Of a stretch of DNA of 64,000 nt, positions 15,701 to 45,300 are shown one piece after another. How positions within the stretch are numbered: position 1 is the stretch's first letter; every line of letters begins with the position of its first letter. The stretch lies in contig OU612075.1 of the NCBI GenBank assembly GCA_914767715.1, positions 23,002,001 through 23,066,000 of the forward strand, read 5' to 3'. The translations under genes were made by a program, and so were the position numbers. Source of the DNA: Membranipora membranacea (lineage: Eukaryota > Bryozoa > Gymnolaemata > Cheilostomatida > Membraniporidae). The notes under the pieces were generated by a model that was not told the DNA's origin, searched no databases, and saw only the letters and a list, made by a program, of their open reading frames with translations.

Positions 15701-18700
15701 TGTACACCAATGAGTTGTCGGATAAACATGCCGTTGTTACTAAATGCTCTCCCCTTGGTAGATCTGATCATGCCTGTGTTGTTGTATCTAGTTGTTTTTT
15801 AAGAAAGTCAGAGTATAAGACCATTCACAAACGCACAGTCACCACCACAGCTCGTAATAACATTATGCTAGAAATAGCTAAGGTAGATTGGTCGTTATTA
15901 TCAAATATTAATGACCTTGATAAATTGGTGGAAAGCTATCAGGATATAATCACAACTATTTACCACAAACACTGCCCAATCAGACACCTACGTATCAAGA
16001 CAGATAGCAAGCCAGCCTGGAAAACCCCCTTGATTCAAAAGCTTCGCCGTGCGAAAGACAAGGCCTTCACCCAGGGAAAGCCCACCTACACATATCTACA
16101 TCAGATACTTGAAATCCTAATATCTAAAGCTAAGCAACGATACTATGACAGTAAGAAAAACCATCTGAAAGCAGGCTCAACAAACTGGTGGCGAAGTATC
16201 AAGTCTCTCGACCCGACCACAAAATCTGACCCACAATCCAATTACATCATCGATGGTGATCTCTGCACACCAAATCAGTTCGCTTGTAATCTGAACTCCT
16301 ACTATAACAACATAGCCGGTGTACAACCCCAGCCTACCGTCATAATACCCCTAGGCTAAGTGCTCAGACTCCAAGGCGCAGGGAGTTACTTGCGCAAGAG
16401 GAGTTTGATAGCTTGTGCAAGTAACTCCCTGCGCCTTGGAGTCTGAGCACTTAGACTATAATACCCCCTACCAGCCATAAAGCCGAGGTTATATCCATTG
16501 GGCTAGTTAAATTAGCACTGAAAAATATCAACGCGGGAAAAGCTGTCCACAGCCAAGACTATCCGCCGTGGATAACTAAGAGCTGTGCAGAGGACTTTTG
16601 TATACCTATCACCATCATTGTAAACAAAACTCTGCAGCAATGTGAATTCCCGATGCTATACAAGAGAGCAGAAATCACCCCAATCCAGGAAACAAGATCC
16701 GCTGCCACCTGCAAAGACTATAGACCATGCTATGCTGTGGCATATTGGCAAAGTAGTAGAAACTTTTATTTGTAGAACACTCCGACAGCAACTAACACCT
16801 AAACTAGAAGACAATCAGTATGCTTACAGGCAAGGTGTCGGGTGCACTGACGCTTTAGTAAGTGTACTTGATGACGTCACAAAATCTCTAGATGATAGCA
16901 AAAACATCGGCATGCAGCTAGTCCTCTATGATTTCAGCAAGGCGTTTGACTTAATGGACCACTCGATATTATTGTCAAAACTGAAATCCCTAGATGTGTC
17001 TGAGGAATCAATAGCCTTAGCAGCACACTATCTGCAAGATCGTCAGCACTGTGTAGCCATTCGACAACATAACACCACCTCTACATACTTGAAGAACAAC
17101 GTCGGCGTACCTCAAGGTACACTGTGCGGCCCTGTGCTTTGGTTAGCATTCGTAAACTCGCTCCAATTCCAACATGGAACGACTATTAAATATGCTGACG
17201 ACACTACCACTATCTACCCTCTAGCTAAAGAACAAACTAATACCATCAGCAATACGAAAGCATCTGTTGAGTTTGTTGTACCGAACATAGGCCAAAAAGT
17301 TGTGAATCAGTGTTCTGATTGGGCAATGGCTAATAATATGAGGCTTAACACACAGAAAACAAAATCACTTAACATCTCTCTACGGAAAGAATTAATAATG
17401 AAAAACAATCCACAATCGATGGCTCCGACATAGAAAATGTCACCTCTAGTAAGCTACTCGGCGTCACCATCGACTCTCACCTGACTTTCTCGGACCACAT
17501 CACAGAGAGACGCAAGTCGACCAATCGAAAGATACACGGCCTGCTTGTTCTCAAACAGTCAGGTGTAGACCAGGGCTCTCTTATACATTATGTATAAATC
17601 ACAAATCATACCAACGATCAGCCATGCAGCTGCAGCCTGGTTCCCCTTCACTACTGAGCAACAGAGAGCAGAAATAGAGAAATGTCAAAAACTAGCACTA
17701 CGCATCATATACAATGAAACAGAATGCTATAAAACGAGACTAGAACTGGCACAGATTCCAACACTGTGCACGACTCTCAATGAACAATGCTCCACCTATA
17801 TGGCCCGTCTAACAACAAACCATGGTCATCCCCTGAGGTCTAGAATGAGAATCATACAAGCTAGTAGACCAAAGCGTTCATCCAGCTCCCAGTCTGACTT
17901 TTATTTTACCAAAACAAGAACGGTAAAAGGCAGTGACTTTATTTTAGCAAATCCTAAATATAGCGAGTAGTAGTCCATGTCTTTTAAAGCTTTTACTTTT
18001 ATTTTTGAATCTACCAAGGGACATTTTTAGTTTTCCATTAATATTTTTTCAAACAAAGATTTTTATCTATTGTGAGCATTTTCGGATGAAAAGCTCCAAT
18101 TAAAACAAATAAACATATTGAGTCCAACAATAGTTACCTTCTACCTCGTGCTCCGAGTTTAAGTGCAGTGAGAATAGGTAATAATAAATACTACCAACGG
18201 ATGACCGAGAGGAGAGAGACCGAGAGGAGAGAGGGAATCTGAGAATTAGATAAGAGAGATATTTTGTGCTTATGATGATTTACTGACCGATGTGAGAGGA
18301 TAGTGGGAGGGAGCTGTAGATGATCTCCAGCTAATATACACTTAGGTGCCTGTATCAGAGCTATCCAACACGCTGCTTCTAACGACTGTAACAAACAAAG
18401 GAAAAAATACATTATATAAAACTTACTGTCCTCGGTATGGACTAGAACAAATAGTCTACCACAGGTCACTGCAGAATAGGTCATTGTCGACACAAGCAAA
18501 CATTCAAACTTTAGATCATACATTAACTAAGGTATTCGATACAAATATAAACGATTATCTGCTGTCACAGCCTAGCTCGTAACTTCACAATGGGTATAAT
18601 AACTTCTAAAGTAACAGGGAACATCTCTGCAGACGATCTCATCACCTGAGAGCATTCATCTATAACTACAACATCAAAGTGCATATCCTCCAGTATCCTG

Positions 18701-21700
18701 AGAGGTCCGTTATCTGTAGCAGAGGTGAGAGTAGATAAGATAACTTCTGAGTTTTTGAGAACTCGACGCACCGCCTCATCACTTCTCTGACGTAACTCAG
18801 TACGTAGCGACTTGAGCTCGTTACGTGTAGATTGGTGGGCGGAGCTACCACGACCCTGTCTCATCTTCTTCTGTACAGGAGAGATAAGATATAATATTAC
18901 ATGGGTATACAGTATTATATACTACATGGGTATACAGTACTATATACTACATGGGTATACAGTTCTATATACCACTATACCCTACATGGGTATACAGTAC
19001 TATACACTACATGGGTATACAGTATTATATACTACATGGGTATACAGTACTATATACCACTATACCCTACATGGGTATACAGACTGTATTATACACTACA
19101 TGGGTATACAGTACTATACACTACATGGGTATACAGTACTATATACCACTATACCCTACATGGGTATACAGACTGTATTATACACTACATGGGTATACAG
19201 TACTATACACTACATGGGTATACAGTACTATACACTACATGGGTATACAGTATTATATACCACTATACCCTACATGGGTATACAGTATTATATACTACAT
19301 GGGTATACAGTACTATACACTACATGGGTATACAGTACTATATACTACATGGGTATACAGTACTATATACCACTATACCCTACATGGGTATACAGTATTA
19401 TATACTACAATGAGCAGGTTGTCTCATGGCTTTAGATGGGTGAACAGAACGCTTATCCATTTCTGAGTATGTCTCATGTCTGTCTAACGATCAGGCAGAC
19501 AATTATAATTAAATATGAACCATCAGCATATCTATTAAGGTTTGGGACTGAGTGAAGTGTTAACCACTTACCAGAGTAGCATCGATATCTTTTCTGATAT
19601 CTTCTACTATAGAGCTTTCATCTGATGCTGATACCTTAGCGTCCAGTGAGTGGGGCTGTATCTCATGCATAGCTCGGGCCGGGTGTCCTAGTCTTGTTAC
19701 TTTAGCCTGTATGGATATAAAGTACAAAATAATGATAAATAATAAATAATATAAAGTTGTACCCTGCTAGGGTGCTGTGTCAATCTATCAGTGGCTACAA
19801 ACACAAACACAGTGTAGGCTCGTCAACTAGAATCCTGTCAATACAAAATTCCTGTTTATTTAGACACCCAAGTTGTTTTTTCTGGTCAAGGAAGAATGTG
19901 AATCCTTGTTGAGATGATGTATTTGATGAAGGGGGAGATCTGGGAGTTCGGGGGAGCTCAGGGGGAGCTCAGGGGGTGATCCGGATCTGAAACAAAATTG
20001 CTTATTCTGCTAAGCCACTAAGCTAAGCTACTACTGTCCACTATAGATGTTTTGTTCCCATCACTCCTTACATAGCACTGTAAAATTAATACAATGTCTT
20101 GTGTTGAAAAACAAGACAGTTTGACAATTCCCTGGAGTATGCCCACATCCATATAAAAAGCCCACGAGTTAGCACTTTTTGAAATTGAATATCTCGTAGT
20201 TAGAACAAAATGCTAGAGTTCCCAGGAGTCTGAATTAAATGTACTAAGTACTAGTTATCTACAAGAAACATTCAATATCAAACATTGCAGATGTCTCTAT
20301 CTGTGCTGACACTGACCTTAGCTTTAGATAGCCTCAGAACAAGATTGTCCACAGCTACATTGCTAGGAGCGCAGGCTAACACCTTTAAGCCTTTAGATAC
20401 AAGCTGCCTGATGACCTCTATGATGGTAGTAGATTTGCCTGTCCCAGGTGGTCCGTGTATGATAGCGAGCCTTGGCTGGGATAAGGCGAGGTGCACGGCC
20501 TGTCTCTGTGATTCATCTAAGTTTGTGTTGTAGAATGAGATTTTGTCTGCAAAGAGATTATGCATCACATGACACATCAAGAGACTAATTACTAACTGTG
20601 CTTGGGTTTAGGATAATGTTAAAATCAGAGAGAAGATAAACCAGTACCTCTACTTCTTATATTATTGTGGGTTTAGATAATATGAAATCTACATGTAAGT
20701 ACACATAAGGTAAGTAATAGTTACAGAGATGTGTGTATGAGAGACTTACCCTTTAGTTGTAGAGGTACATCATCAGATGAAGATGAGAATGTAAGATCAA
20801 TCAGACCATCAGCTGGCAGACTTTTACCTCTGTTTAGCTTGTCCAAAGCTCTATAAGTATATAATGATTGAGTATTCAATTAGTTGAGGATTAGATCACT
20901 GATGAGAAATCATGACCACTCAACTAAATGTGCTAAGGGGTCGTCACTAGAATGGTTTGATTTTAACCTTATATTTTCTCTCTCGGTAGGAGGCGTTATG
21001 TGACCTCAGAGACCTGATGATATCACGTCAACTCTAGATACGTGTCTGTACATAACCCATGTTTAGTCTGTAAGTAAGCTCCTCTAACCATATAGCTAGA
21101 ACAATTAGTTATACTATGAGTTAGGCCTGACCTGCGTAGCCTTTTATATGTGACATCATTAGCTAGTTTGACGAGATAATACTGACAATCATCGCCGATA
21201 AGAGATAACTCCTCGCTCTGCTCGAAGGCCACACAAATCTGAGTAGGAGATACCCGAGTCACGATACCAGAGGAGATCTGAGCTGAAGGGGCAGATGTCA
21301 GGTTCAGCCCCAAAATATCACCTGTGATAGTAAACATAAGCAACTTAAAGAAAACGTTTTTTACTGAAATGTTGGTACAAATGAATGACAAGAAGACAAC
21401 CCTTCACAATACTGGCTGATAACACATTATGCTTATTGATGATATATTCCAAACAATAGGACAAACAGACACCGAAACTTGCCCAGTTATTATGACCCGC
21501 CAATGAGATATTGAGAAAATAGGTAGCAATGATAGCCTACTTCATTTGTATTCAACTTTCAGATTTTAAGACTGCATTATAACATCAGTTCACCTTGACC
21601 AGTTGCTTGCAACGGGTTTGTGAAGGCTCATAAGACCTGTTGTGGGGCAGTCAGGGGACGTTGTAAGACAGCCTTGTGGCGTTATTAAGCAGTCTTGAGA

Positions 21701-22583
21701 TATCTCAAGACATTGTGAGCCATTCTTGGGATGCTGTAGAACTGTTTTGAGGCCTGATGCATAGGCTCAATCAATCCAAAACCACAAACAAAGGACTCGG
21801 CAGATAAGATTATACCTAGTCTGTTGACTTTTATGGAACTTATGTTATGTCACTTTCAGAACTGGGTTAGTTTTGTAATGTTAATGTTTTACAGTTTTGG
21901 CTTTCTGGTTACGACGGGAAAGTGGACATTAGCTAGTATCTATTTGAGAGACAGCATTCACTGTTCCATCAATTAACAGGAACCTCATAGCATGCCACCC
22001 TAGTGTATACTAGAGCACCTCATAGCATGCCACCCTAGGGTATACTAGAGCACCTGTTGTTATGCTGTGAGCTGGAAGTTCTGGTCTGTTGACATTGCTG
22101 GGTTTAAACTTCAGTATAAGTCGCCCATATAAACTCGTCTTCCTGCTCTCTATACTGAGCTTTGTGATACATACCCCTCTCTTCTCCAGCTGCTTCGGTG
22201 ACACATTCTCCTGTAAAGCTCTAAAACAAAGTCAAGGACCAGTGATGAAGATCAACAAGGCAGCAAACATAAGTTGCCTTATTATGGAAGGCATACTTTG
22301 ATACTCATACAAGACCATATTTTTACACAGAGTTAATTACACTCAAACAGAAGACATGTGGTTAATACAATCCAATAAATCAGAACTAAAATAAAATCAA
22401 ACTCCACTGCCTGCAGTGAGAATGCCTGTGTGTATGTATTTATCATTCTTCATCAGTTCAGACTTCATACCTGGATTCCTCTAGCTCTGCTTCTCTTTCT
22501 AGTTTCAACAATTCATCAGTACATTGGCAGAAATGATCAACAGAGTTGAAATATTCTTTTGGTGATATGATTAAGTCTGGCAT
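777..22583 (-). CDS. IGHMBP2: IGHMBP2-like (SMUBP-2) UPF1-family RNA/DNA helicase with R3H domain, 17 coding exons
   Basis: Superfamily 1B, UPF1-like 5'-to-3' helicase, linked in vertebrates to translation and ribosome-associated RNA. Exons (minus, in order): 22,471-22,583; 22,054-22,220; 21,132-21,321; 20,750-20,850; 20,317-20,546; 19,572-19,706; 18,646-18,870; 18,288-18,385; 13,755-13,944; 13,410-13,518; 4,978-5,072; 4,345-4,468; 3,185-3,361; 2,579-2,783; 2,230-2,404; 1,712-1,877; 777-997. All junctions are GT/AG and all phases agree; the sum is 2,721 nt, 906 residues (human about 993). Motifs: Walker [10 protein letters not shown] (exon 5), [14 protein letters not shown] (exon 7), [25 protein letters not shown] and VAVTRARR (exon 13). 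An R3H domain spans exons 15-16 (about residues 735-800). The last exon has a C2HC-like finger (CETCG...HQLRC) and a lysine-rich end, not the vertebrate AN1 finger. The start is the ATG at 22,583; upstream 5' UTR exons are possible. Confidence 0.95.
1144..1672. mobile_element. foldback/MITE-like element with long inverted arms
   Basis: The left arm from about 1,144 (TTTTCAGCTTTAGAATCC...) is the imperfect reverse complement of the right arm ending at about 1,672 (...GGATTCTAAAGCTGAAAA). Similarity continues inward over some 200 bp per arm, including the shared GGGTACGTCACAACCAT or TACGTCACAACCAT block near 1,240-1,262 and its inverse near 1,560-1,577. No clear target-site duplication was found. 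It sits in the last IGHMBP2 intron (998-1,711) and has no coding capacity. Confidence 0.7.
2091..2220. repeat. 19-bp minisatellite next to a 5' splice site
   Basis: About six copies of a 19-bp unit containing TAGTGATCTGATTCGAACA. Copy starts are at 2,108, 2,127, 2,146, 2,165, 2,184 and 2,203, always 19 bp apart. On the gene's strand the array begins about 10 nt after the donor of the IGHMBP2 exon 2,230-2,404. Confidence 0.85.
5434..5767 (+). pseudogene. LINE 1 short 5' ORF (frameshifted)
   Basis: An ATG at 5,434 starts [20 protein letters not shown] and then stops. The continuation, beginning [14 protein letters not shown], lies in another frame to a TAA at 5,765-5,767, two nt before the ORF1 ATG. 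One frameshift therefore seems to have broken a single ORF of about 110 residues ending in a lysine-rich stretch. It has no recognisable domain. It may be a separate accessory ORF or the split N-terminus of ORF1. Confidence 0.5.
5769..7490 (+). CDS. LINE 1 ORF1 protein (coiled coil plus RRM-like C-terminus)
   Basis: Open frame of 573 residues. The N-terminal half is rich in Ser, Pro and Thr, with a basic [10 protein letters not shown]-like patch. A likely trimerising coiled coil lies around residues 235-310 (for example [20 protein letters not shown]). The C-terminal 150 residues have an alternating hydrophobic pattern (around [11 protein letters not shown] and RTVKVKF) as in the RRM-like fold of LINE ORF1 proteins. 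No CCHC knuckle was seen. Known ORF1 proteins bind RNA and package the retrotransposon transcript. ORF1 is intact while ORF2 is not. The ORF2 ATG at 7,483 overlaps the ORF1 stop (ATGTCTAG), which fits coupled termination-reinitiation. Confidence 0.75.
   Translation: MTSAILVNGNSDINYFMAHYEELMSKMPHHDVDAANQDYQSICHTALASVKNYERDSFSDESNMDTSINSPSFTHIKDGATEPSLPTHPVPSTSSNIESEPSKGLSPHPTTPSQQSPVKNQSPINNTASPISPIPNTSSPIIQSDIDITHVRTAITNSSPINQQLKSTIFNRRQAETGIHDQLTPPSKSREKSRPRSRSPLNKSIPPLISDLSSYPPISSPSTKIPDCSLDMCKALNKSLQSRIQELEEVVNNQAKIIQQMQESRNIGPLTNDTLRAHLSHFSETVEQKFNHQLFCVKQQLESSINQKFGTYAQIAGERQSHDTGAHVSPSIPTPHTSTQQNQANPLSRPLSFQSHGRSSHSPHHSGSPNNNTLHRRKSKLKSSSKDQQSSDHPQPTHREPFAPERNIIINIEKDSAFYLNYNQDITRQEICKHYGLVIVEKITPYKFKSDHPKLAIQFRDTAAAIKIVTKWNCLLFGGSTARRPQDPKTQNLNCAMMYNVPKEGSNNDIERDVKAVYPEATIERLSKGGKTSRTVKVKFSSQTDTKHAIHNGIPLKSLFIYCHLSEISTLNV
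7483..8953 (+). pseudogene. LINE 1 ORF2, endonuclease and start of RT (broken)
   Basis: Reading starts [19 protein letters not shown], typical of an APE endonuclease N-terminus, but meets a TGA near 7,563 and further breaks near 7,770-7,800. From 7,933 a 354-residue open frame continues. Endonuclease signatures include GDFNVDLSH just before it, IDHIYTN and SDHFLV. The frame then runs into the RT N-terminus ([26 protein letters not shown]). It ends inside the foldback element: the last residues after LVLP are element sequence. Confidence 0.85.
8954..12136. mobile_element. 3.2-kb foldback transposon with >1-kb inverted arms, nested in LINE 1
   Basis: The ends are inverted copies starting CCATAGACATAATATACTAC (8,954) and ending in the complement at 12,136. 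The homology runs from each end inward for more than 1 kb. For example, 9,905-9,960 pairs with 11,690-11,755, and 10,150-10,240 pairs with 11,383-11,470. A second copy of that last block at 10,886-10,974 is joined to an inverse of 10,290-10,400, so the right half is rearranged. Flanks are TTTTAC (left) and TTTAAC (right), a probable 6-bp target duplication with one mismatch. Without the element the LINE RT reads through in frame (LVLP into ILSKIFEK). No transposase was recognised; the 78-residue ORF at 9,615-9,851 matches nothing I know. Superfamily unassigned. Confidence 0.85.
12137..13250 (+). pseudogene. LINE 1 ORF2, reverse transcriptase and C-terminus (broken)
   Basis: Continuation of the ORF2 split at 8,953. 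An open frame at 12,196-12,879 carries the RT core: [29 protein letters not shown] and [10 protein letters not shown] (the YADD catalytic pair). It then frameshifts. Degraded C-terminal sequence ([13 protein letters not shown] and on) can be followed to about 13,250 with several stops. Confidence 0.85.
14029..14222. repeat. 30-bp minisatellite in an IGHMBP2 intron
   Basis: About six tandem copies of a 30-bp unit containing CTAACCGTGATTGGCTGAGT, with small substitutions. The array lies about 85 nt upstream (on the gene's strand) of the acceptor of exon 13,755-13,944. The open frame across it is a by-product of the repeat. Confidence 0.85.
14375..14580 (-). mobile_element. tRNA-derived SINE (family C), minus strand
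   Basis: On the minus strand the 5' end reads GGAGGTAGCTCAGTTGGTTA (pol III box A) and then GGGTTCGAATCCC (box B) with tRNA-like spacing, followed by a non-tRNA body ending near CTCAGTCCTCGGACGGAG. The anticodon arm does not pair properly, so this is not a tRNA gene. A second copy lies at 54,885-55,030 in the same orientation. It directly abuts the 5' end of the second LINE. Confidence 0.75.
14589..15104 (+). CDS. LINE 2 5' ORF of unknown function
   Basis: 171-residue open frame. The start has a short hydrophobic stretch (FTLIIVIFF), perhaps upstream read-through; an internal ATG at MAADTISYS is an alternative start. The body is polar with a basic segment and ends KKIRRMRC. No domain is recognised. 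Its place just before the endonuclease frame suggests a remnant ORF1, but this is inference. Confidence 0.4.
   Translation: MSYFTTFTLIIVIFFSSDAYQPSDLYTSYSTIPDMAADTISYSREELLKYQHLQQSTVFNWRHIDATIENPTSGYKNHGIKAIPNNRSQSIRQRKARLSEIITLPPYSSVINYSGNECASLSRTGSIGVNGEAGVGYHAQSWSTPHHGYGHPASAQCSVEPSHKKIRRMRC
15159..17970 (+). pseudogene. LINE 2 ORF2: APE endonuclease and reverse transcriptase (frameshifted)
   Basis: The endonuclease starts [17 protein letters not shown] and has [14 protein letters not shown] and GGDFNTLD. Its frame ends at 15,713 and resumes in another frame from about 15,700 ([10 protein letters not shown], then GRSDHACVV, the SDH motif), so one frameshift is visible. A hairpin element interrupts it at 16,354-16,457. 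RT motifs follow: [28 protein letters not shown] and KYADDTTT. A further frameshift near 16,740 and stops near 17,433 precede the C-terminal segment 17,590-17,970. Clearly inactive. Confidence 0.85.
16356..16454. mobile_element. 99-bp near-perfect hairpin insertion in LINE 2
   Basis: Arms 16,356-16,398 and 16,412-16,454 are 43 nt each with one mismatch and a 13-nt loop. Flanking direct repeats ATAATACCCCTA (16,342-16,353) and ATAATACCCCCTA (16,458-16,470) look like a 12-13 bp target-site duplication. Removing the hairpin and one repeat rejoins the LINE reading frame, so it is an insertion. It has no coding capacity. Confidence 0.8.
18895..19408. repeat. minisatellite of about 25-bp units near a 3' splice site
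   Basis: About 20 copies built on TACATGGGTATACAGTACTA, alternating with a longer variant containing CCACTATACCC. On the gene's strand it ends about 25 nt before the acceptor of the IGHMBP2 exon 18,646-18,870. Long open frames across it are artefacts of the period. Confidence 0.9.
21984..22053. repeat. 35-bp direct duplication starting exactly at a 5' splice site
   Basis: Copies 21,984-22,018 and 22,019-22,053 differ at about one position. The second ends exactly at the boundary of IGHMBP2 exon 22,054-22,220, so on the gene's strand the intron's first 35 nt (GTGCTCTAG...) are repeated and a second donor-like GAG|GTGCTC follows 35 nt downstream. Confidence 0.85.
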
Positions 22584-30062: not shown

Positions 30063-32211
30063 GGGTCAACAATAATAACAGGAGCACTCGTTCTGTTGGA
30101 CCTGATAGACATGAAAACAGATGGTTGGGGAATAGCTGGATCTTTTAATACTGAGTGGAGGTTTCACATAAATGATGGTGAGTGTAGAGGGCCGGACCCG
30201 ACTTCTCATCCAACAGCTTTATTTATATAATAATATAAGGTCCTCAACCTAGCCTCATAGACTTAAAGAAAACATTCAAATCACAAAAATACAGGAATTG
30301 ATACCCATCGAATTAGGCTCTCTGTCGCTCACAGGAAATCATACTATAAATTAGGACCAATCTGACCACAGCTTGAATTACAGGGAAGCCTTTAGTGTAG
30401 ATTCATCTACAGGCTCTTTTATTATCATAGTACCCAAGCATTGCTATAATACTAACTAGGCCTGAATCGCTTCTAATCTGCTGTGGGGCCTGGCTGAGTT
30501 GTCCCTATACCCACAAAGAGTGTTTTGTTTGGGTAACTTTTGTGGAAATTTAAGACTATTATCCACTGTTAAACATTGAACGATTCAGACATCTACAGAT
30601 TTTGACAGCTGTTTAATATCTGAGCTGTTGATTACTTACATTACATGATTACAGTGATGACAGCTCTGGACGTAGTGATGATATTCGCTCACTTGTTTAT
30701 GTTCTGTCTGGCTATTCTCACCTTTGCCGTATCTCGTAATGAGGTGAGTCTGCTTGTTTAACTATAGTAGATATGCAGAGATGATTGTATTGAAGCCAGT
30801 CTCACTATTATCACGCTATCTTGTTTGAGAAGACCTCTGTTATCAAAAAACCCAATCTAGCAGGCCAGACAAGTGGCTTTCCTTTCGAATTTCAGAAAGA
30901 TGAAAGAAGACAATGGGGATTTCTTGAGGGATATAGTAGCCAAGTTACAGACATGCTGTTGTGCTTTTAATATTTCCAGTAAAGGGCCATCCACCAAACA
31001 TCTCTGTTAAAGGGCCAACCATTTATAAAATCTGTTATTCCGGTAGTGCTAAAATCATTGCTTTGTCCTAAAGTCTATACTACATTGACTAAATATGGAG
31101 TAAAACATGATATGCATTCTAAGTCACTTTACTCTGCTGCACATAATTGGCCTAACTCTGGTGTGTGTATGTGATATTTACAGGATACTAAGCTGAATGT
31201 ATGTATGCTGCTATTCTTCACTGTTATGATGTGTCTGTACATACTGATCGAGTTTGCTGTTAACTGTTACTTCTTTACTTGGATGAATCACAATATCTTT
31301 GTAAGTTCTGAGCAGCTTCTCGTCTCACAGACCATCGTGGCTGGAATTGCTGCCATTTTCACTTTTTAATCTGCATCTGATAGAACAGGACTGTGATATT
31401 GAACTTACTATCACTTCATGTAATTAGTCAATGCACTTGTTGACTCTTATCACGTTCCCAATACCACCACTTTTGAGTATAAAAATATCGGTAGTATCAA
31501 GAGTTGTCCTCACTTTTGTGATATGGGTGACAACTCTGCACATCAACTAACCTTTAAGCTGTTGAGGGTCATTTCATGCTCATTTTTCTGATCATAATCA
31601 ATGCTCTTATATTTGTTCATTTATACTGCTGTTAACTGACGCCATACTCTATTACAGATACTGCCCTATCTGGCTTTCTTATGGGGATTCTGGATTCTAA
31701 GAACTTGTCTCAATGTAAGTGAGATATTGTAGTACATTGTCTTCTGTATTTCAGATCATGTGTCAAAGGATAAGTTGATTAATTTACTTGCAGCTTGATA
31801 TGTATATACGGTGACTGGTCATGATGTACACTAAGAATCCCCCACATATTTGGTTGTACTCTTAATATGCTCACTGCTAGTAGAGTCCCTCCTAGTACTC
31901 CTAGTACACTAACTATATACTTCCTCTTATTACAGATAATGGTTGCCATGGTTACACACAGCCGTATTATAGACCTCAAGTTCCAGAAGAAGTACGATTT
32001 ACTGAATATGCCTGGTGTGAATCACTCTCTATCTACAGCCTCTATGCTTTCGGGTAGCATGAGAAGTGTGGCCGGTCAGCAGCATATCAGAGCTATGAGC
32101 AGTCAGCGTCTCTACGCCAGCAGACAATCTCTGGGTCACGCTCAGAGCTCCAGGAGTCTGAATAAGAGCCAACAATCACTAAATATGGGCAGAGGCGCCG
32201 CTAACTTCTAA
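30063..32211 (+). CDS. four-pass membrane protein, possibly LAPTM-like (5' end missing)
   Basis: Five visible exons: 30,063-30,177; 30,655-30,743; 31,184-31,300; 31,658-31,714; 31,936-32,211. All have AG/GT borders and agreeing phases; stop at 32,209. They encode 217 residues; an upstream first exon is expected but not found. Four hydrophobic segments: TIITGALVLLDLI, VVMIFAHLFMFCLAILTF, VCMLLFFTVMMCLYILIEF, and ILPYLAFLWGFWILRTCLN running into IMVAMV. The tail of about 85 residues is Ser-, Gln- and Arg-rich with repeated SxxSL motifs (such as KSQQSLNMG), probably cytosolic. The opening GSTIITG and the topology recall lysosomal LAPTM4/5-type proteins, but no diagnostic motif is visible. Tail-to-tail with PRMT9. 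Confidence 0.75.
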
Positions 32212-32663
32212 ATATGGGCAGAGGTGCTGCTGACTTCTGCACTATTACTACGCTGCTATACTACATGACTGGGTTATTACTGCTATTCATTGGCTGATAT
32301 CGTGGGACCAGAGATTTCCCTGAACTAAGACTTGTGATGATTCAACAAACCTCAAAATGACCAGATTTTCAATGGTCTGATGCTAAGTGATAAAATCTAT
32401 GGTATAAATGTGGCATAAAGTAGAATTGATCGTTGAAAAGAAGAATTGCTTTGAAATTAATGTTTGTTAGTATATGTACCTTTGTGTTTTAAAGTTTTAT
32501 TATTTTACATTCCAAGTAATTCAGATAAATTTGTATTTTGCCATCTGACCTATCCCATTCTATCCCATACTGCTTACTGTTTATTAATTTTTAAGGTTCA
32601 CTCAGATTACATTCTTTAAATCAAACATTCCATCTTTTTACAGAATATGTAGCTATTTACTTC

Positions 32664-33300: not shown

Positions 33301-36300
33301 GACTACCATATATATATACATATATATACACATGAGCTAATAAACAATCATATATATATACAGAAATGAGCAGATAAATATAGAGCATATATCGCAATAA
33401 AGGAGGCTGCAGTGGATGTTGTCCTAGATGGGGTTCATATATAGTTACAGACATAAGTGTTGAAGTTGATCGCTAGCATAGCTAATAGTAACGAGGACTA
33501 CCCGAGATGAGTAGATATTAGCAAAAGTTGAGCTTATCTGGAGATAATCTTGTGTTAGCTAGTATTAATTCCACTAGTTAAGGTAAGAATTTATATCAAT
33601 CATGAGGGTGAGTAAAAGTTTGCGCTTCATACATGTGTGAAAAAGGTGAACCTTTCTTTCTGCGCACACATTGCTCCTCTAGGGAAGAATGCTAAGACAT
33701 AACCGTACCCAAATAATATAACAATCAACTTATCTCTGTGATCTAAGGCTATAAAAACTGGTGTACTTTGTCTGAGAGGCAAACAGAACGAGTTATTGGT
33801 TGTCAAAGCATGGAATAAAAGAAATTGAACCATGCTATTTGTATCGAATCTTTGCCAACCAGTCACTTCATATGGGTGTCTCTCAGGCAATAAGAGTTTC
33901 AAAGCCTTAGATGATTGTGACTAGTTGATTGATACATAGTTATGCTAAAAAGACTATTCCAACAGTTCATGTTTTGGATTACTAAATATCAATCATATGA
34001 GTTGTTTAACATTCAATTGACTTTTCTGTCCGCATTTTTAAAAAATTTTTACAATGTTTTTGAATTCCAGTCCGCTAATTGCTGGGTTGTTTTATTCCTC
34101 AATGTTTCTCCTATCACAAAGCATATAAGACTTACCAGTAAACCACTGCGTTCACTACACAGGTCGTCCCGAGCATAGACTCAACTTGTACTGTGTTTAG
34201 CTGATTCAGAAATGTGGGCAAACCTGAAAAAGATATTATAAGTTTCATATGGTGATGTCCACAGTTTAAACTCAATTCATATCTATATGTAGGTGTAAAT
34301 GTAAAAAATTGACTTGAGACGGGATATTACCTTTGCTATCTATATCAGTAGCATTGAGATCTATAGATATCAGCTTGGAGGGGTCAGTGATCCTTGTGTA
34401 ATCTAAGGTTGAGAGATCAATGTCCCGCTGGTGTAATGCCTGCAAATATACGAGTCACATATCTATATGTTAGCTGTGATTCCCGCAACTTACCTCGTAA
34501 AACAAAGAAATAACCCCACTACAAAATAAGAATTAAACAGCAGATCTCAATAACATAAAGCTTTTTGCAAGTTCTAATAACAATATTGCAACTATTGTAT
34601 CATAGAAAACATCAGCTTTAGTTCGTAGAGGAAGTTATTTTTTGTTTGTTCTCAATCATATCGGTCAGCCTATCGTATGATTTTATGCCTAACTTACCTG
34701 GTAATCATTAATATACGGAGCTATCTCACCTGGTAATCATTAATATACGGAGCTAACTCACCTGGTAATCATTAATATACGGAGCTTACTCACCTGGTAA
34801 TCATTAATATACGGAGCTATCTCACCTGGTAATCATTAATATACGGAGCTAACTCACCTGGTAATCATTAATATACGGAGCTAACTCACCTGGTAATCAT
34901 TAATATACGGAGCTTACTCACCTGGTAATCATTAATATACGGAGCTATCTCACCTGGTAATCATTAATATACGGAGCTAACTCACCTGGTAATCATTAAT
35001 ATACGGAGCTAACTCACCTGGTAATCATTAATATACGGAGCTAACTCACCTGGTAATCATTAATATACGGAGCTAACTCACCTGGTAATCATTAATATAC
35101 GGAGCTTACTCACCTGGTAATCATTAATATACGGAGCTATCTCACCTGGTAATCATTAATATACGGAGCTAACTCACCTGGTAATCATTAATATACGGAG
35201 CTTACTCACCTGGTAATCATTAATATACGGAGCTAACTCACCTGGTAATCATTAATATACGGAGCTAACTCACCTGGTAATCATTAATATACGGAGCTAT
35301 CTCACCTGGTAATCATTAATATACGGAGCTAACTCACCTGGTAATCATTAATATACAGAGCTAACTCACGTGGTAATCATTAATATACGGAGCTTACTCA
35401 CCTGGTAATCATTAATATACGGAGCTAACTCACCTGGTAATCATTAATATACGGAGCTTACTCACCTGGTAATCATTAATATACGGAGCTAACTCACCTG
35501 GTAATCATTAATATACGGAGCTAACTCACCTGGTAATCATTAATATACGGAGCTATCTCACCTGGTAATCATTAATATACGGAGCTTACTCACCTGGTAA
35601 TCATTAATATACGGAGCTAACTCACCTGGTAATCATTAATATACGGAGCTAACTCACCTGGTAATCATTAATATACGGAGCTAACTCACCTGATAATCAT
35701 TAATATACGGAGCTAACTCACCTGGTAATCATTAATATACAGAGCTAACTCACCTGGTAATCATTAATATACGGAGCTGACTCACCTGATAATAATTAAT
35801 ATACGGAGCTAACTCACGTGGTAATCATTAATATACGGAGCTTACTCACCTGGTAATCATTAATATACGGAGCTAACTCACCTGGTAATCATTAATATAC
35901 AGAGCTAACTCACCTGGTAATCATTAATATACGGAGCTAACTCACCTGATAATAATTAATATACGGAGCTAACTCACCTGGTAATCATTAATATACGGAG
36001 CTTACTCACCTGGTAATCATTAATATACGGAGCTGACTCACCTGATAATCATTAATATACGGAGCTAACTCACCTGGTAATCATTAATATACGGAGCTAA
36101 CTCACCTGGTAATCATTAATATACGGAGCTAACTCACCTGGTAATCATTAATATACAGAGCTAACTCACCTGGTAATCATTAATATACGGAGCTAACTCA
36201 CCTGATAATAATTAATATACGGAGCTAACTCACCTGGTAATCATTAATATACGGAGCTTACTCACCTGGTAATCATTAATATACGGAGCTGACTCACCTG

Positions 36301-39300
36301 ATAATAATTAATATACGGAGCTAACTCACCTGGTAATCATTAATATACGGAGCTAACTCACCTGATAATCATTAATATACGGAGCTAACTCACCTGATAA
36401 TAATTAATATACGGAGCTAACTCACCTGGTAATCATTAATATACGGAGCTAACTCACCTGGTAATCATTAATATACGGAGCTAACTCACCTGGTAATCAT
36501 TAATATACGGAGCTAACTCACCTGATAATAATTAATATACGGAGCTAACTCACCTGGTAATCATTAATATACGGAGCTAACTCACCTGATAATAATTAAT
36601 ATACGGAGCTAACTCACCTGATAATCATTAATATACGGAGCTAACTCACCTGGTAATCATTAATATACGGAGCTAACTCACCTGGTAATCATTAATATAC
36701 GGAGCTAACTCACCTGATAATAATTAATATACGGAGCTAACTCACCTGATAATCATTAATATACGGAGCTAACTCACCTGGTAATCATTAATATACGGAG
36801 CTAACTCACGTGGTAATCATTAATATACGGAGCTAACTCACCTGGTAATCATTAATATACGGAGCTAACTCACCTGGTAATCATTAATATACGGAGCTAA
36901 CTCACCTGATAATAATTAATATACGGAGCTAACTCACGTGGTAATCATTAATATACGGAGCTTACTCACCTGGTAATCATTAATATACGGAGCTATCTCA
37001 CCTGGTAATCATATATATACGGAGCTATCTCACCTGGTAATCATTAATATACGGAGCTAACTCACCTGATAATAATTAATATACGGAGCTAACTCACCTG
37101 GAAATCATTTATATACGGAGCTAACTCACCTGGAAATCATTTATATACGGAGCTAACTTACCTGGTAATCATTAATATACGGAGCTAACTCACCTGATAA
37201 TAATTAATATACGGAGCTAACTCACCTGGTAATCATTAATATACGGAGCTAACTCACCTGGAAATCATTTATATACGGAGCTAACTTACCTGGTAATCAT
37301 TAATATACGGAGCTAACTCACCTGATAATAATTAATATACGGAGCTAACTCACCTGGTAATCATTAATATACGGAGCTAACTCACCTGATAATAATTAAT
37401 ATACGGAGCTAACTCACCTGGTAATCATTAATATACGGAGCTAACTCACCTGGTAATCATTAATATACGGAGCTAACTCACCTGATAATAATTAATATAC
37501 GGAGCTAACTCACCTGGTAATCATTAATATACGGAGCTAACTCACCTGGTAATCATTAATATACGGAGCTAACTCACCTGGTAATCATTAATATACGGAG
37601 CTTACTCACCTGGTAATCATTAATATACGGAGCTATCTCACCTGGTAATCATTAATATACGGAGCTAACTCACCTGGTAATCATTAATATACGGAGCTAT
37701 CTCACCTGGTAATCATTAATATACGGAGCTAACTCACCTGGTTATCATTAATTTACGGAGCTAACTCACCTGGTAATAATTAATATACAGAGCTAACTCA
37801 CCTGGTAATCATTAATGTACGGAGCTAACTCACCTGGTAATCATTAATATACGGAGCTATCTCACCTGGTAATCATTAATATACGGAGCTATCTTGAATC
37901 CACAGGTTCTCCTGTTACTGATCACACAGCTTGTCTCCATTAGTTGTACTGAGTTTATACAGATCCCGAACAGATGAAGCTTACCTGGTATAATAACTCC
38001 TGAGTCTGCAGTCAAGGCTGATAATCTGTCAAAATATACAAACATATAATACAACAATGGTTTACCTTTTGGTATACAGTCGGTTATCTCTCATCCACAA
38101 ACGACCTTGAGTGTGAACTTAGCCCTGTTTTCTATTTGGCAGGACATACATATCGCATGCTATGGTTCTTTTTTCATCAATGAGATTGCATGCATTCAAA
38201 CACCCCTCCTGTTAGGATACCTCAGTTGAGTTTTAAAATGTAGTTGAACCTCATGGGTGACTGATAAATACCACGGGATAAATAATATGGTATATATCTG
38301 TACATTTGGTACTTGTCTCTCATTTGTTTAAGTGCCAACATGAATGAGAAAGAATTTGAACCCCGAAGAAGAACAATAATACGACCTACTTGATATATGC
38401 GAGATCATTGAGGACGTGCTGTCTTAGAGTTCCGTTAGGCTCAACCAGATCAGCGAGAACACAGTCTAAGCTCATCCCGGCACATGATTCTACATCTACA
38501 AGTCATAATGTGATAAGAATGTTTGGCATGGATGAGATAACTCTCACTGCTACTACTGTATTATACTGTATTAGTAATTATGACTGATTAGTCTGCTCTC
38601 TGCTAGTTCTGTATTATATCCTTTCTCACATGTACAATAACAGAGCTAGCTGCCCGACTATAACAGAGCTAGCTGCCCGACTATAACAGAGCTAGCTGCC
38701 CGCCTATAACAGAGCTAGCTGCCCTACTATAGTAGAGCTAGCTGCCTGACTATAACAGAGCTAGCTGCCCGCCTATAACAGAGCTAGCTGCCCTACTATA
38801 GTAGAGCTAGCTGCCTGACTATAACACGCGTCGGTCTGTTGGAAGCCTTTCAGCCTGTATATAAGGTTAATGTGGAGTTGTCTATAGCTTACCTTGTAGA
38901 TGGCTGACACTGGTGACATCATTCTTATCACAGATCTGTTTATATATTGTCTTGTGATAATCTGAACTACCGAGCCAGAAACAATCTGACGCGTCCAACC
39001 TGCTACACTAAAAATATATAATAATAACTGGGTGATGATTCTAAATCAGGTTAATTCTGAAAACGATTAGCAGCTGTGCCATACATGCAAATAGAGGATA
39101 AACCTCCTCACCTTCAGAAGTGGATACCCAAGAGTGGCTCACAAGCTCCCCTGAACAAACAATTTTCACTTTGGAGTTTTCTGCACAATAGCAATTGATT
39201 GATTTTTGATTGATTGTATTATTACTGACTCATTACTGAGTAATATGTTGTTTAGCGTGAGCAATAAAACTGTTGTAAAAATTAAAAAATTGTCAGTTAC

Positions 39301-42300
39301 TAGCTTGGTTGGTGTAATAAGAGGAAAAAATATAGATGAAACATAAAAAATATTACTAATGGCTTAAAAAGAATACTATTCAGTTTCCGTGCACAGCATG
39401 CTCGAATGATCAAATAAACCTCCCATCATGTGATTAAAAGCAAACTAGAACAACCAATAACTGTAAATGATGACTGACTGACCTGGATTGGGAGTGTAGT
39501 GAATAGTGGCGACATGTCCAGCAGAGTAAAGTGTTTGCTGCCATCAGAGTTTTCTCTTTGTGAGGATATCAGGCTATTCACTGCTATACATACAGCTGTA
39601 CTATAGTATATGTCATTCATCCTAAAACATATTAGGTATATATGAGGTAGTATTGAGAATGAAAACATCTTCTCGGAAAATAGCCAAAAACATCGATATC
39701 TGATACCGTTCATATTACTAGATTACAGTATCATGACTAACTAATTGTTTAATACTAGAGTAGTAACTTTTATATAACTCTATCCCCGTCATCGCATAGA
39801 CACATAGACATATATAAGTATAACACACCTGTATATCTCCTGACTAGACAGCAGGAGCACCTGTTTATTCTTGCCAGTGTGATGATCAGCTGTAGATCTC
39901 TGGTTATATGAACACTTACAGCACATCGGCTCACTCTGCTCAGCCCTGCCTGTACTATTACTGTCCATGTTACTCTCAGTGGATGGAGTATTAGTGCTGC
40001 CTCCGCTGGTACTGTCGCTTGGGATGTTTCCTTCATTTGTATCAAGTGGTAAGTCAGTGTCAGACATTTGAGTTAAAACTTTCCCAGAGTTCATATCTCC
40101 TGTATAAAGCATATCACAGTCTGTAACAGTAGACACATCACAGTCTGTAACAGTAGAGTCGTCCTCAGATTGAGTTATCACAGTTATCGGTATATCACAA
40201 CCATTAAGTTTATCTGTGGAGTTCTGATTGTCGTCTGAGCCGAGTAAGCTGAGTGATCTCAGGGTCATAGTATCAGGCTGTGTAGTTATATCCTCACAGC
40301 TGACCCATTTTATCTCTATACAATCATCATGAGAGAGTAACTCCAGACTGACAGTCTGGTCCTTAGTAAGGTAGGATCGGGGGAGACGACTAAGAGGGAA
40401 TATAGCTGGATACCAGCAGCTGACAGGACCGGAGGGGTTAGAGCTCAGCTTAGATGTCTCATCCAGGTACAAGTCAAACCTGTCAATATAACAGTACGGA
40501 TAGTGAGGGCAGATCATCAAACATCCTGCTGCTATTGTTATGAAACGCTTTGTCATAAATACTGTGTGTTAATCCTTACCAAACACCACATTGGTACTGG
40601 TTAATCACATACTGTTATCTTACTATTTTATATCTACCATTCAATGTGTAAGTTAACAAACTATTTAAACCAGTAGTTACTTTGTGAAAGAATCTCCAGC
40701 ATATGTAGAGTTGTGATTCCAATATCAATGGAGAGACAACTTCACACATCCTCCGACAAACCAAACTCTTAATGGATAAACTCACCAGAGAGCGACAGCA
40801 TCACAGTGTCCTGATCTCTGCATAGTCAGGTTAGTTATCTCCATGTGTCCAGCTAATAAGTGCTCTATATTCTGTGTATAATCATAAAATAGACTAGGTG
40901 ATCACATACATCATATAGTCCGAATACTGCCACACACCATTATCAGAACATGAACAGGGATAGATGTACAAGAAATAAATAAAAAGGAAAAGAAATAAAC
41001 TTGTGCCAGTATAATATATTCACCAGTGTTGCGCAAGTAACTTTATCTTCTATCATTAAGTTACTTCACTATTACCTGGATACTATTGAAGTCAACATCG
41101 AGACATTTCCTTGTGTTAGTCAGCTGTTTATACCCGCCCCTGATATTATTCAGGTTATATGTGGTGTAAGGGTCAAACTCATCCTCAGGCTTAGTACTGT
41201 CAGGTAACAGGTCACATGACTGTGATGTCATGTCTATAAATAACAGATCTGTAAGATCGATCTGTCTTAGAGCTGAGTATATACATCTGTCAATGTAGAG
41301 AGTAGAGATTATGAGTTAACATAGAAGGAAGGTATGGTGTATTTCTCAAAATAATAGATCTTCATAGAAGATTCATATTGAGATCGCAGAGTCTTAATCT
41401 TCGAACCATGAAAGTTCTAGAATCAGGAGACGTGAGAGTTTTGCCTGTGATCACAAAATCTGCTGAGAGAGTGACCTCAAGATAAATAATAAATCTGTAG
41501 GGAGTACGCCCAGGGGCAAATCTAGGCTAAGCCTATCGCCATGTTTTCTGTTCCCTGTAATGATGTGCTCTGAGCTGGTATGCTCTGAGGTGATATACCT
41601 GTGATGTTTTCTGATTTCCTCAGACTCTATAATACAGCAGTAGAGCTCTGCTCTGGCTGGTATTACTCTACTGATAGTGGACTCTGTATTCAGTAATGAT
41701 CTCCAGGCGTGTGACAGTGTAGATAATATCCTCTCCCCTAACAAACCTGTAAATAACACTCAATACTACAGTACTACAGTACTACAGTACTACAGTACCT
41801 GAATACTACAGTACCTGAATACTACAGTACCTGAATACTACAGTACTACAGTACTACAGTACCTGAATATTACAGTACCTGAATACTACAGTACTACAGT
41901 ACTCCAGTACCTGAATATTACAGTACCTGAATACTACAGTACCTGAATACTACAGTACTACAGTACCTGAATATTACAGTACCTGAATACTACAGTACCT
42001 GAATAATACAGTACCTGAATACTACAGTACCTGAATACTACAGTACTACAGTACTACAGTACCTGAATATTACAGTACCTGAATACTACAGTACCTGAAT
42101 ACTGCAGTACCTGAATACTACAGTACCTGAATACTACAGTACCTGAATACTACAGTACCTGAATACTACAGTACTACAGTACCTGAATATTACAGTACCT
42201 GAATACTACAGTACCTGAATACTGCAGTACCTGAATACTACAGTACCTGAATACTACAGTACCTGAATACTGCAGTACCTGAATACTACAGTACCTGAAT

Positions 42301-45300
42301 ACTACAGTACCTGAATACTACAGTACCTGAATACTACAGTACCTGAATACTGCAGTACCTGAATACTACAGTACCTGAATACTACAGTACCTGAATACTG
42401 CAGTACCTGAATACTACAGTACCTGAATACTACAGTACCTGAATACTACAGTACCTGAATACTGCATTATGAGAATAATGTGTACTTGGTACTTTGTGGA
42501 ACGACTCGCTTCTTTATAAAGCTTGCTGATTCATAATTATACTTTATGTTTCCTGACATGCGTACAGACACTAGAGATGTTCTGGTAGCACATGATGACG
42601 TGTATTAAACTCACCACAGTCGATAGTCTCTGTGATGATTAGATCTACTTTACTTTTCAGATCGGCTGTCTCACTATCACCGTTATCACATACAGAGAGC
42701 GCTGACGAATGCTTGGCTGTTATATTCACTCTATCTGACAGTTTGTTAGCCTGTAAAATCTCATGGGCCAGTCTGAAAAAATCAAAACATCCTAATTTGG
42801 CACAAGGTCACATTGGTTTGGTACACATGTGACATGAGACAGTAGCACGGTACAAACAAGCAAGAATTGTTGTACTTTGGGAGTTATCTCTTAGCAGAGA
42901 ATTATCTCACTCATTGATAACTTTTTGTCAAACAAAACTTACAAACTAAGTCAAAGGGTTATTGTATTACAAATTCACACATTTATATTTATAGTCAGCT
43001 CGTGCCTCCCCATCACTTGCCTACCCACTAATTCTGGCAGCCAAATACTGTGTTTCGGCAGTTTTTACATCATAAATTTAACTGTTGATTCATAGACACA
43101 TTATATGCAGGAAACATAGATATTGTATAACATTCAAATGTCACATAAATCTGAGATGTATCTGAAATATAAAAATAGCTGTTTGAAGTATCTCCACTTT
43201 CATTCACAAATAAAAATAACTGTATGAAGTGTCTCCAATTTCATATATAAATTTATATTGAAATATAAAATGGGTATCTGGCAATATCCCTCAGACTGAT
43301 TGATGGGAAACCAAGATACACAGCCAACAGAACTCATATTTTTGGCTCACAATCAACTAGGAGGGATGTCTATGTGTATCTGTAAATTTTCCGGGCTTCG
43401 TATTTGCAACTTTTCTGACAAATATCACATGCTAATTCTATCATGAAGTGACGGTACTACTAACATGAAGTGATGGTATCAGAGACTATGGATATAGTCT
43501 CTGATGGTATTACTAACCTGTCCTAACTCTAACACGAAGTGAAGGTACTACTAACATGAAGTGATGGTATCAGAGACTATGGATACAGTCTCTGATAGTA
43601 TTACTAACCTGTCCTAACTCTAACATGAAGTGACGGTACTACTAACATGAAGTGATGGTATCAGAGACTATGGATATAGTCTCTGATGGTATTACTAACC
43701 TGTCCTAACTCTAACATGAAGTGACGGTACTACTAACATGAAGTGATGGTATCAGAGACTATGGATATAGTCTCTGATGGTATTACTAACCTGTCCATTG
43801 TCTCGCTCTCATCACAGGCGTAAACCTCTCTGGCTCCACATTTAGCTGCCATCATACTAAAACAGTTATACAGCACTCAGCTATTCTCAATGTTATACAA
43901 GACAAGGTTAACCTCCTACGTCTCAGCTATTCCCAAGAGCTCAATATTCAAATTCCAAATCCATAGTAAAAGCCATTAGTGATGTGCAGGTGTCAGTTTC
44001 AAAGGTGAAATATTGAGGGGAAAATCAATTGAGACCTAAACAAAAAATGATTATGATTTATATATATCGGTGCTAATCATTTCACTAATATTTTAAGAAA
44101 TGAGTCTCATCCTCTGTACAATCTTATCATTTTTAATACCAATCAAAGAGTATTGTCACGTATTGCCTATAAATTGCGGCCCAGACGCAGCCGTACCACT
44201 AAACGTACCACTAAACGTACCACTAAACGTACCACTAAACGTACCACTAAACGTACCACTAAACGTACCACTAAACGTACCACTAAACGCCGTACCACTA
44301 AACGTACCACTAAACGCCGTACCACTAAACGTACCACTAAACGCCGTACCACTAAACGTACCACTAAACGTACCACTAAACGTACCACTAAACGTACCAC
44401 TAAACGCCGTACCACTAAACGTACCACTAAACGTACCACTAAACGTACCACTAAACGTACCACTAAACGTACCACTAAACGTACCACTAAACGTACCACT
44501 AAACGTACCACTAAACGTACCACTAAACGTACCACTAAACGCCGGTGCAGTTTTTTTAATTACTTCATGAATTTTTACAACAACAATTTTATGTACCACT
44601 GAGTTACACCAAGAGTCATATACATTCATTTCTTCATCATCCTTGCCATGATATCGTATGTAAAATACAAATCAATCAATCAATATTTATGTGTGTGTGT
44701 GTGTATCCCTCAAAAAGATTAATTGCTTCGAATCAATCTTTTCCAACTATGATTGGCTCTATTTCAGACACCATTCAAATTCTCAGATATAAGAGCTAGG
44801 CCTCATGATAAGACTTTTGGCAAGATGGCAAGGTAATTCAATAAAACTCGGTCCAATCTATATTCCTAAAAGATGTAGGCTAATGTCACATTAAATTCAA
44901 ATACACCAACTCCAAACAATGCGAGCCATTTCAGCTTGGGCTCAAAGAGACGTAACCAATATGGGACATAATCAATGTAAGGAATGACTACCTGAGTATT
45001 CCTGTGCCTGATCCGATGTCCAGTACTCGTCTACATCCTGAGGCTACAGCTTTATGTATGGCGTGTTTGAAGGCACTATTCCTGCTCTCATCGTTAAGCA
45101 TTAAGAAGTGCCAGCGATCGACGAGGTGACACAGTATATTATCTAAGTTCTCCTGAGATACGGCATCTCCAGGGTTTATAGTGATTGCCTTCCTGTAGTA
45201 ATCCACGGCGTTCTCCATATCTCTCAGTCTGTCAGGATAAGAACATGAGTATAAGTAACTGGTGCTGGATATACGAGTAAAAGCACAGTCAGAGAGCTGT

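Follow-up and report, generated by a model that had tools for sequence, protein, structure and literature searches.

A 100-copy repeat of an exon border with its splice donor in a bryozoan PRMT9 gene, and similar arrays at other exon borders

The closest known kind of element to the one described here is the exon stuttering of birds (PMC12954441). According to that account, exon edges carrying a donor or an acceptor splice site have been copied through the intron on chicken dot chromosomes, in 236 introns of 115 genes, with 1–44 copies (median 4) and with more than 90% of the sources lying within one base of an exon border. The copying is described as strictly local, it leaves the exon intact, and intron lengths differ between birds. 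As summarized there, the phenomenon covers birds plus GC-rich gerbil genes (data not shown), and a link to GC-rich sequence is suggested. Among the papers listed in our literature searches none reports it beyond birds and gerbils, which is no proof of absence. Here we describe a 100-copy array, with a unit made of the end of an exon and the adjoining 5′ splice site, in the PRMT9 gene of the bryozoan Membranipora membranacea, found in a stretch of 64,000 nucleotides (GenBank assembly GCA_914767715.1, contig OU612075.1, positions 23,002,001 to 23,066,000; hereafter the window, whose own numbering is used below), together with arrays of the same anatomy elsewhere in the genome. We consider it quite probable, on the sequence evidence, that such arrays are near-neutral tandem expansions over exon borders, tolerated because the exon-proximal copy of the splice site would be the one used.

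Anatomy of the PRMT9 array

The array and the exons that it separates are as follows, a slash between bases or positions marking a splice junction here and below.

34693..37892, minus strand: array of exon end and 5′ splice site, 100 × 32 bp head to tail (unit parsing, Tandem Repeats Finder, core search)
37861..37892, minus strand: unit 1, comprising 27 coding bases and the first 5 intron bases, GTGAG (sequence, unit parsing)
34693..34724, minus strand: unit 100, with GTAAG at its end and then the unique intron sequence TTAGGCATAAA (sequence, unit parsing)
37866..38025, minus strand: coding exon of PRMT9, with unit 1 as its 3′ end and the true donor at 37866/37865 (homology, gene model, frame)
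34331..34439, minus strand: next PRMT9 exon, in frame with the preceding one (homology, gene model, frame)

Unit-by-unit parsing of the minus strand resolves the array into 100 consecutive 32-bp units of 16 types with no indels, and Tandem Repeats Finder (TRF) reports the same array at 34689–37891, with 100.1 copies, 95% matches and 0% indels. A preliminary description of the window had claimed 100 × 32 bp without net indel, and this is borne out; the array that it placed at 34691..37890 is real, with limits that differ from ours by two bases, a matter of phasing. Unit 1, which it had rightly seen as the genuine exon end plus intron start (split 25 + 7 in its phase and 27 + 5 in ours), reads ATAGCTCCGTATATTAATGATTACCAG/GTGAG, and the commonest unit, present in 41 copies, reads TTAGCTCCGTATATTAATGATTACCAG/GTGAG. 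The donor GT is kept in all 100 units and AG/GT in 96 of them, in register (93 AGGTGAG, 3 AGGTAAG and 4 ACGTGAG), in agreement with the earlier claim that nearly all units carry a good donor. The unit is 37.5% GC. The array accounts for 3,173 of the 3,426 bp of its intron, the remainder amounting to ~0.25 kb.

An 18-base core, searched with up to three mismatches, has 100 matches in the whole window where shuffles expect 0.09, and all 100 sit inside the array, which excludes an origin from a repeat dispersed within the window. The units abut without spacers and so do not form a CRISPR array, as had already been recognized. A coding repeat is ruled out by the unit length, 32 bp not being divisible by 3, and by the immediate stop on read-through. 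That the array is an artefact of assembly we regard as scarcely credible: its 16 unit types stand in patterned order through 100 units without an indel, and arrays of the same anatomy occur in other genes of this 18-contig assembly.

The coding state of unit 1 is supported by homology. Exon 37866–38025 reads LSALTADSGVIIPGKLHLFGICINSVQLMETSCVISNRRTCGFKIAPYINDYQ and ends in phase 0, the joined exon 34331–34439 starts ALHQRDIDLSTL, and the protein junction is NDYQ/ALHQR. In a phmmer search the residues FKIAPYINDYQ of the first exon align with FNIAPFINQFQ of PDB 8rbk chain A, a PRMT9-type chain whose neighbours in the match list are named PRMT9, and the alignment crosses the junction gap-free. 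Six of seven homologs are likewise gap-free at the junction; the seventh, from Bugula neritina (P0001), lacks one residue just ahead of the shared stretch (MNNFQ or INDYQ). The Bugula protein is also the best named PRMT9 match (43%), clearly ahead of the rest among the matches listed. Read-through past the first donor adds valine and arginine and then meets a stop, and therefore no decoy, as we term the donors of units 2–100, yields the full protein. The preliminary description had assigned the gene, the exon and the donor in this way and had argued that only the first donor keeps the frame; the 8rbk alignment and the stop on read-through uphold both points.

Arrays at other exon borders

Gene models of PRMT9 and of IGHMBP2, also in the window (best named match Ridgeia piscesae, 53%) comprise 21 donors and 15–16 acceptors, and two further arrays in the window cover exon ends.

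43432..43796, minus strand: 4 × 91-bp array, units starting GACAG/GTTAGT, first copy formed by the end of a further PRMT9 exon, whose final base is 43791 (TRF, gene model)
21982..22055, minus strand: 2.1 × 35-bp array, starting AG/GTGCTC, at the end of an IGHMBP2 exon whose final base is 22054 (TRF, gene model)

Within the spans of the two genes, three of 12 TRF arrays contain a donor against 0.23 expected by random placement (P = 0.0008), and a laxer set of 24 arrays gives three against 0.40 (P = 0.0064). Without the 32-bp array, two of 11 contain a donor against 0.22 expected (P = 0.018). None of the 12 contains an acceptor, but only 0.17 were expected and the window therefore says little about acceptors. 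These counts bear on the alternative that the arrays are ordinary intronic minisatellites that reached exons by chance, splice sites being irrelevant to their origin and donors being everywhere. Nine of the 12 arrays touch no donor and the mutational mechanism is probably that of any minisatellite, while the excess of donor-containing arrays, with or without the PRMT9 array, speaks against chance contact.

The whole assembly (339 Mb in 18 contigs, the window lying on contig C11) was scanned for donor motifs in tandem. The pattern CAGGTRAGT three times, with gaps of 10–40, has 231 matches genome-wide and its reversal one, the places being listed from contigs 1–6; CAGGTAAGT alone has 64 matches and its reversal none, in 14 array places, all of them listed. 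Such matches tally single units, not arrays, which makes them a weak measure. Twenty 10-kb pieces taken at 1-Mb steps of C11 served as a 200-kb sample, in which CAGGTRAGT occurs four times, the shuffled motif CAGTGRAGT eight times and shuffled versions 2.4 times on average. The donor motif is thus no commoner than CAGTGRAGT as single copies, yet CAGGTAAGT occupies 14 array places and CAGTGRAGT four, a contrast that a minisatellite origin blind to splice sites would not lead one to expect. That shuffled-motif arrays occur in the genome at all is in keeping with such an origin, which on balance we hold to be rather unlikely.

The pattern scans and the window together gave 21 donor-type places, those of the GTGAGT type coming from contigs 1–6. 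The exon-side edge was read in 20 (L028 stops short of it), of which 19 are independent, since L029 is a near-identical paralog of L030. Seventeen of the 20 (PRMT9, L023–L027, L029, L030, L032–L034, L037–L039, L041, L042 and L049) have an open frame of 40 codons or more that runs up to the first unit's donor and ends there, as compared with 35% of 403 control CAG/GT sites from the 200-kb sample; with a threshold of 50 codons the figures are 13 of 20 and 23%, and the frame lengths differ with P = 2.5e-5 (Mann–Whitney). Several of these frames are recognizable as exons. L023 is an ITPR exon (E = 6e-32) in which all 84 residues up to the array are matched, L034 is a PWP2 exon whose 50 residues are all covered by PWP2 chains, among many WD40 matches, L029 is an acetylglutamate-kinase-like exon (E = 8e-5) with a match that reaches the last residue, and L041 is laminin EGF (E = 3e-8). 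Weak matches were obtained for L025 (PHD, E = 0.005; the matching frame has 31 codons and a longer frame lies in another phase) and L037 (TNFR/ephrin-receptor-like, E = 0.004), and the domain scan gave no match for L024, L026, L027, L032, L033, L038, L039, L042 and L049.

L029 (C4:331451-332250) and L030 (C4:340591-341350) lie in neighbouring near-identical genes with the same 24-bp donor array, a unit that stays open on read-through and would then add an in-frame eight-residue repeat, VSHSHKGQ. Separately, a 17-bp donor-like unit (CAGGTGAGTSTGTGTAG) occurs at no fewer than nine dispersed places (L036 and eight others, on contigs C1, C3, C5 and C6) and therefore is probably carried by a mobile element; there is no exon at the edge of L036, the one place read, and the family was left out of all counts.

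Acceptors were sought with TTTYNCAGG three times, which has 50 matches in seven places against 15 matches for the reversed control. One of the seven (L049) is in fact a donor array. In three of the six acceptor-type arrays the last unit is an acceptor followed by the start of an open exon: L043 is POLR1B/RPA2 (E = 2.5e-15), L046, with ~39 copies by span, matches Helicase_C only at E = 0.026 and has no PDB match, and L045 has an open frame only, with no Pfam match. Judged by coding sequence, the real copy would be the first in donor arrays and the last in acceptor arrays, in both cases the exon-proximal site, a pattern that we read as exon definition. The spliceosome would use the first donor of a donor array and the last acceptor of an acceptor array, and the surplus copies would then remain intronic, as exon definition predicts.

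The arrays also cluster in position. The PRMT9 array lies 0.33 Mb from the end of C11, and of the 20 donor arrays counted 12 are no more than 2 Mb away from a contig end, where 12.7% are expected (P = 8e-7); without the window array the count is 11 of 19 (P = 4e-6). For this count the pair L029 and L030 was taken once, L028 was included and contig C10 left out, and a contig end is not equated with a chromosome end. Such arrays thus recur at exon borders of this genome, over donors and in some cases over acceptors, and many of them lie close to contig ends. The preliminary description, which had the gene, exon, donor, array and frame argument right, missed both this genome-wide class and the precedent in birds.

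Splice-site choice, growth of the array and other repeats

Donor strength was estimated from a modelled duplex with the 5′ end of U1 and from a weight matrix built on the other 20 donors of PRMT9 and IGHMBP2. The true PRMT9 donor reaches −11.1 kcal/mol in the duplex model; 85 of its 99 decoys form a more stable duplex, 10 tie with it and 4 are weaker. By the weight matrix, the score of the true donor is equalled or exceeded at 100 sites on the minus strand of the window; 96 of them, the true donor included, lie in the array, and one of the four others lies within the exon itself.

37976..37987, minus strand: strong donor-like site inside exon 37866–38025, CAG/GTAAGC, GT at 37984, scoring at least as high as the true donor (weight matrix)

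The last copy had been proposed as the best donor. Unit 100 does carry GTAAG, but so do two inner units, followed by TTAG, and 12 units (GTGAGTAA) form a more stable modelled duplex with U1. At 15 other exon-edge loci the decoys were scored on short pieces holding the first few copies only, with L049 left out. Stronger decoys were found at L023 (one of three), L029 (two of three), L033 (all three in the piece, the first donor being CAA/GTAAGT at −7.2) and L042 (two of the five in the piece, the first donor being CAG/GCAAGT), and none among the decoys seen at the remaining 11. The strength of the first copy thus varies: it is not in every case the highest of its array, and not in every case low.

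Could the PRMT9 decoys have been selected as a regulator, binding U1 and slowing splicing, or lowering PRMT9 output through nonsense transcripts that depend on copy number? The more stable modelled duplexes of 85 decoys and the stop met on the first read-through would suit such a role. Similar arrays in unrelated genes (ITPR, PWP2, POLR1B) suggest a general process rather than regulation of PRMT9, and in most such genes the decoys seen are equal or weaker; selection of this kind therefore appears distinctly improbable.

A recursive or dual-specific array, in which units alternate as acceptor and donor and whole units are removed stepwise with the junction restored each time, would account for the register of AG/GT in 96 of 100 units and for its presence in the 91-bp and 35-bp arrays, and dual-specific AGGT sites in tandem repeats are reported to be used in human UBC (PMC10809524). 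With an acceptor matrix built from only 15 sites, the 14 units with TTATTATCAG score +2.9, within the range of the 15 real acceptors, whereas 66 of the 100 units share a score of −5.8, below all 15 (leave-one-out minimum −3.2). Nor was a good branch-point match seen in the unit at the usual distance, judged by eye against the consensus. We consider stepwise removal improbable.

Against near-neutral expansion with exon-proximal choice stand several observations. Use of the first donor is a reading of the coding sequence. The strong donor-like site at 37984 would also have to be ignored, and so a rule by which the shortest exon wins cannot be the whole one. Decoys stronger than the first donor are not general, being found beyond PRMT9 at just the four of 15 loci named above. 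Arrays of the shuffled motif CAGTGRAGT exist too (four places with 18 matches, and 52 matches for its reversal), and open frames of at least 40 codons are likewise present at 35% of control sites. No exon was found at the edge of three of the 20 donor arrays (L022, L031 and L040), and no clear exon at the edge of three of the six acceptor-type arrays (L044, L047 and L048). The enrichment near contig ends is uncorrected for gene density there.

The PRMT9 array is flanked by a 7-bp direct repeat with one mismatch, which fits slippage or repair at microhomology.

37889..37895, minus strand: AAGATAG, on the exon side of the array, putative first arm of a seed repeat (sequence; putative role)
34689..34695, minus strand: AAGTTAG, on the intron side of the array, putative second arm of the seed repeat (sequence; putative role)

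Before expansion the two arms would have stood 32 bp apart, in an ancestral intron of ~0.25 kb in which the exon end would have been followed by GTAAGTTAG. A short stretch over the exon end and 5′ splice site would first have undergone tandem duplication, probably through slippage or repair involving the two arms, and later duplications of several units at a time would have raised the number to 100 copies and the intron to 3.4 kb. A block of six unit types, NFGEOE, is found both at unit 51 and at unit 59. Similarity within the last 20 units (0.974) exceeds that within randomly drawn sets of 20 (0.953, P = 0.005); the first 20 units show no significant deficit (P = 0.17), and unit types seen once fall at units 3, 4, 5, 28, 34 and 100. 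The pattern weakly suggests recent growth on the intron-distal side. The flanking repeat, the recurring block and the likeness of the distal units also lend support to the earlier proposal that the junction spread locally into the intron.

Other repeats of the window lie near splice sites or open frames. A 44 × 16-bp array (41772–42463, minus strand TTCAGGTACTGTAGTA), every unit of which has a CAG/GT, takes up the greater part of a PRMT9 intron and stops ~25 bp ahead of the acceptor. A 28 × 12-bp array (44192–44541), also within a PRMT9 intron, has long open frames in several frames that its period alone creates. In IGHMBP2, a 7 × 19-bp array (2086–2220) begins 10 bp past the donor of the R3H exon and is possibly, by eye, a decayed exon-edge array; an array with periods of 25, 60 and 110–114 bp (18894–19409) stops 24 bp ahead of an acceptor. 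A 2 × 29-bp repeat (32179–32238) lies at the end of a plus-strand open frame, with the stop in the second copy. The long plus-strand open frames at 5730–8997, 12142–13221 and 14559–17970, in IGHMBP2 introns, appear by their motifs to encode proteins like those of retroelements without long terminal repeats (non-LTR). ARAGORN found no tRNA gene in the window, and Rfam gave one marginal tRNA match.

Comparison with described systems

If the reading of near-neutral expansion is correct, the instability described in birds, and noted in gerbils, also occurs in a distant animal with AT-rich DNA, and neither GC-richness nor G-quadruplexes would then be required. We tentatively extend this to a broader proposal, which we hold to be less likely than not, that stuttering is a mutational process general to the ends of animal chromosomes, with no need for GC-rich sequence, and that its arrays are natural experiments in exon definition. 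Under this proposal the exon-proximal site would have to win over as many as 100 near-identical donors or ~40 acceptors, and in PRMT9 despite the 85 decoys that pair better with U1. Arrays over AG/GT borders would have a second safeguard, since excising whole units from the RNA would recreate the original junction. The arrays offer a natural test of whether the cell picks the first, the strongest or the partner-nearest among near-identical splice sites; in PRMT9 the choice is among 100 donors, and the sole one that yields protein is surpassed by 85 others in the U1 duplex model.

As in the avian stuttering described in PMC12954441, an exon edge and its splice site have been copied locally into the neighbouring intron, the tandem expansion has rendered the PRMT9 intron repetitive over 3,173 of 3,426 bases, and the coding exon is intact. 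That account deals with imperfect tandems and a GC-rich link, whereas the present case is a non-vertebrate one with 100 regular units. The GC-rich setting, which its authors propose as an association and which is not among the three main features, is absent here: the 200-kb sample of C11 has 38.1% GC and the unit 37.5%, and eight other array units range from 32 to 51%. The human internal tandem repeats at exon–intron boundaries described in PMC2812944 share minisatellite units of ~30 bp that lie across the boundary; as presented there, they average ~4 copies, lie in segmental duplications and are discussed as a source of new introns through the activation of cryptic sites. The tandem dual-specific sites of UBC and VCX3A (PMC10809524) resemble the PRMT9 array in that each unit has one AG/GT, a register that 96 of the 100 units keep here. 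Those units are coding and the report draws on RNA data for their use as donor and acceptor, whereas units 2–100 of PRMT9 are intronic and known from sequence. Finally, the AGGY proto-splice-site duplications of Drosophila (PMC2891723) are, like the PRMT9 array, tandem duplications of a stretch with a splice motif, and differ in that, as that report describes them, they place a new intron within an exon, while in PRMT9 an existing donor has been multiplied.

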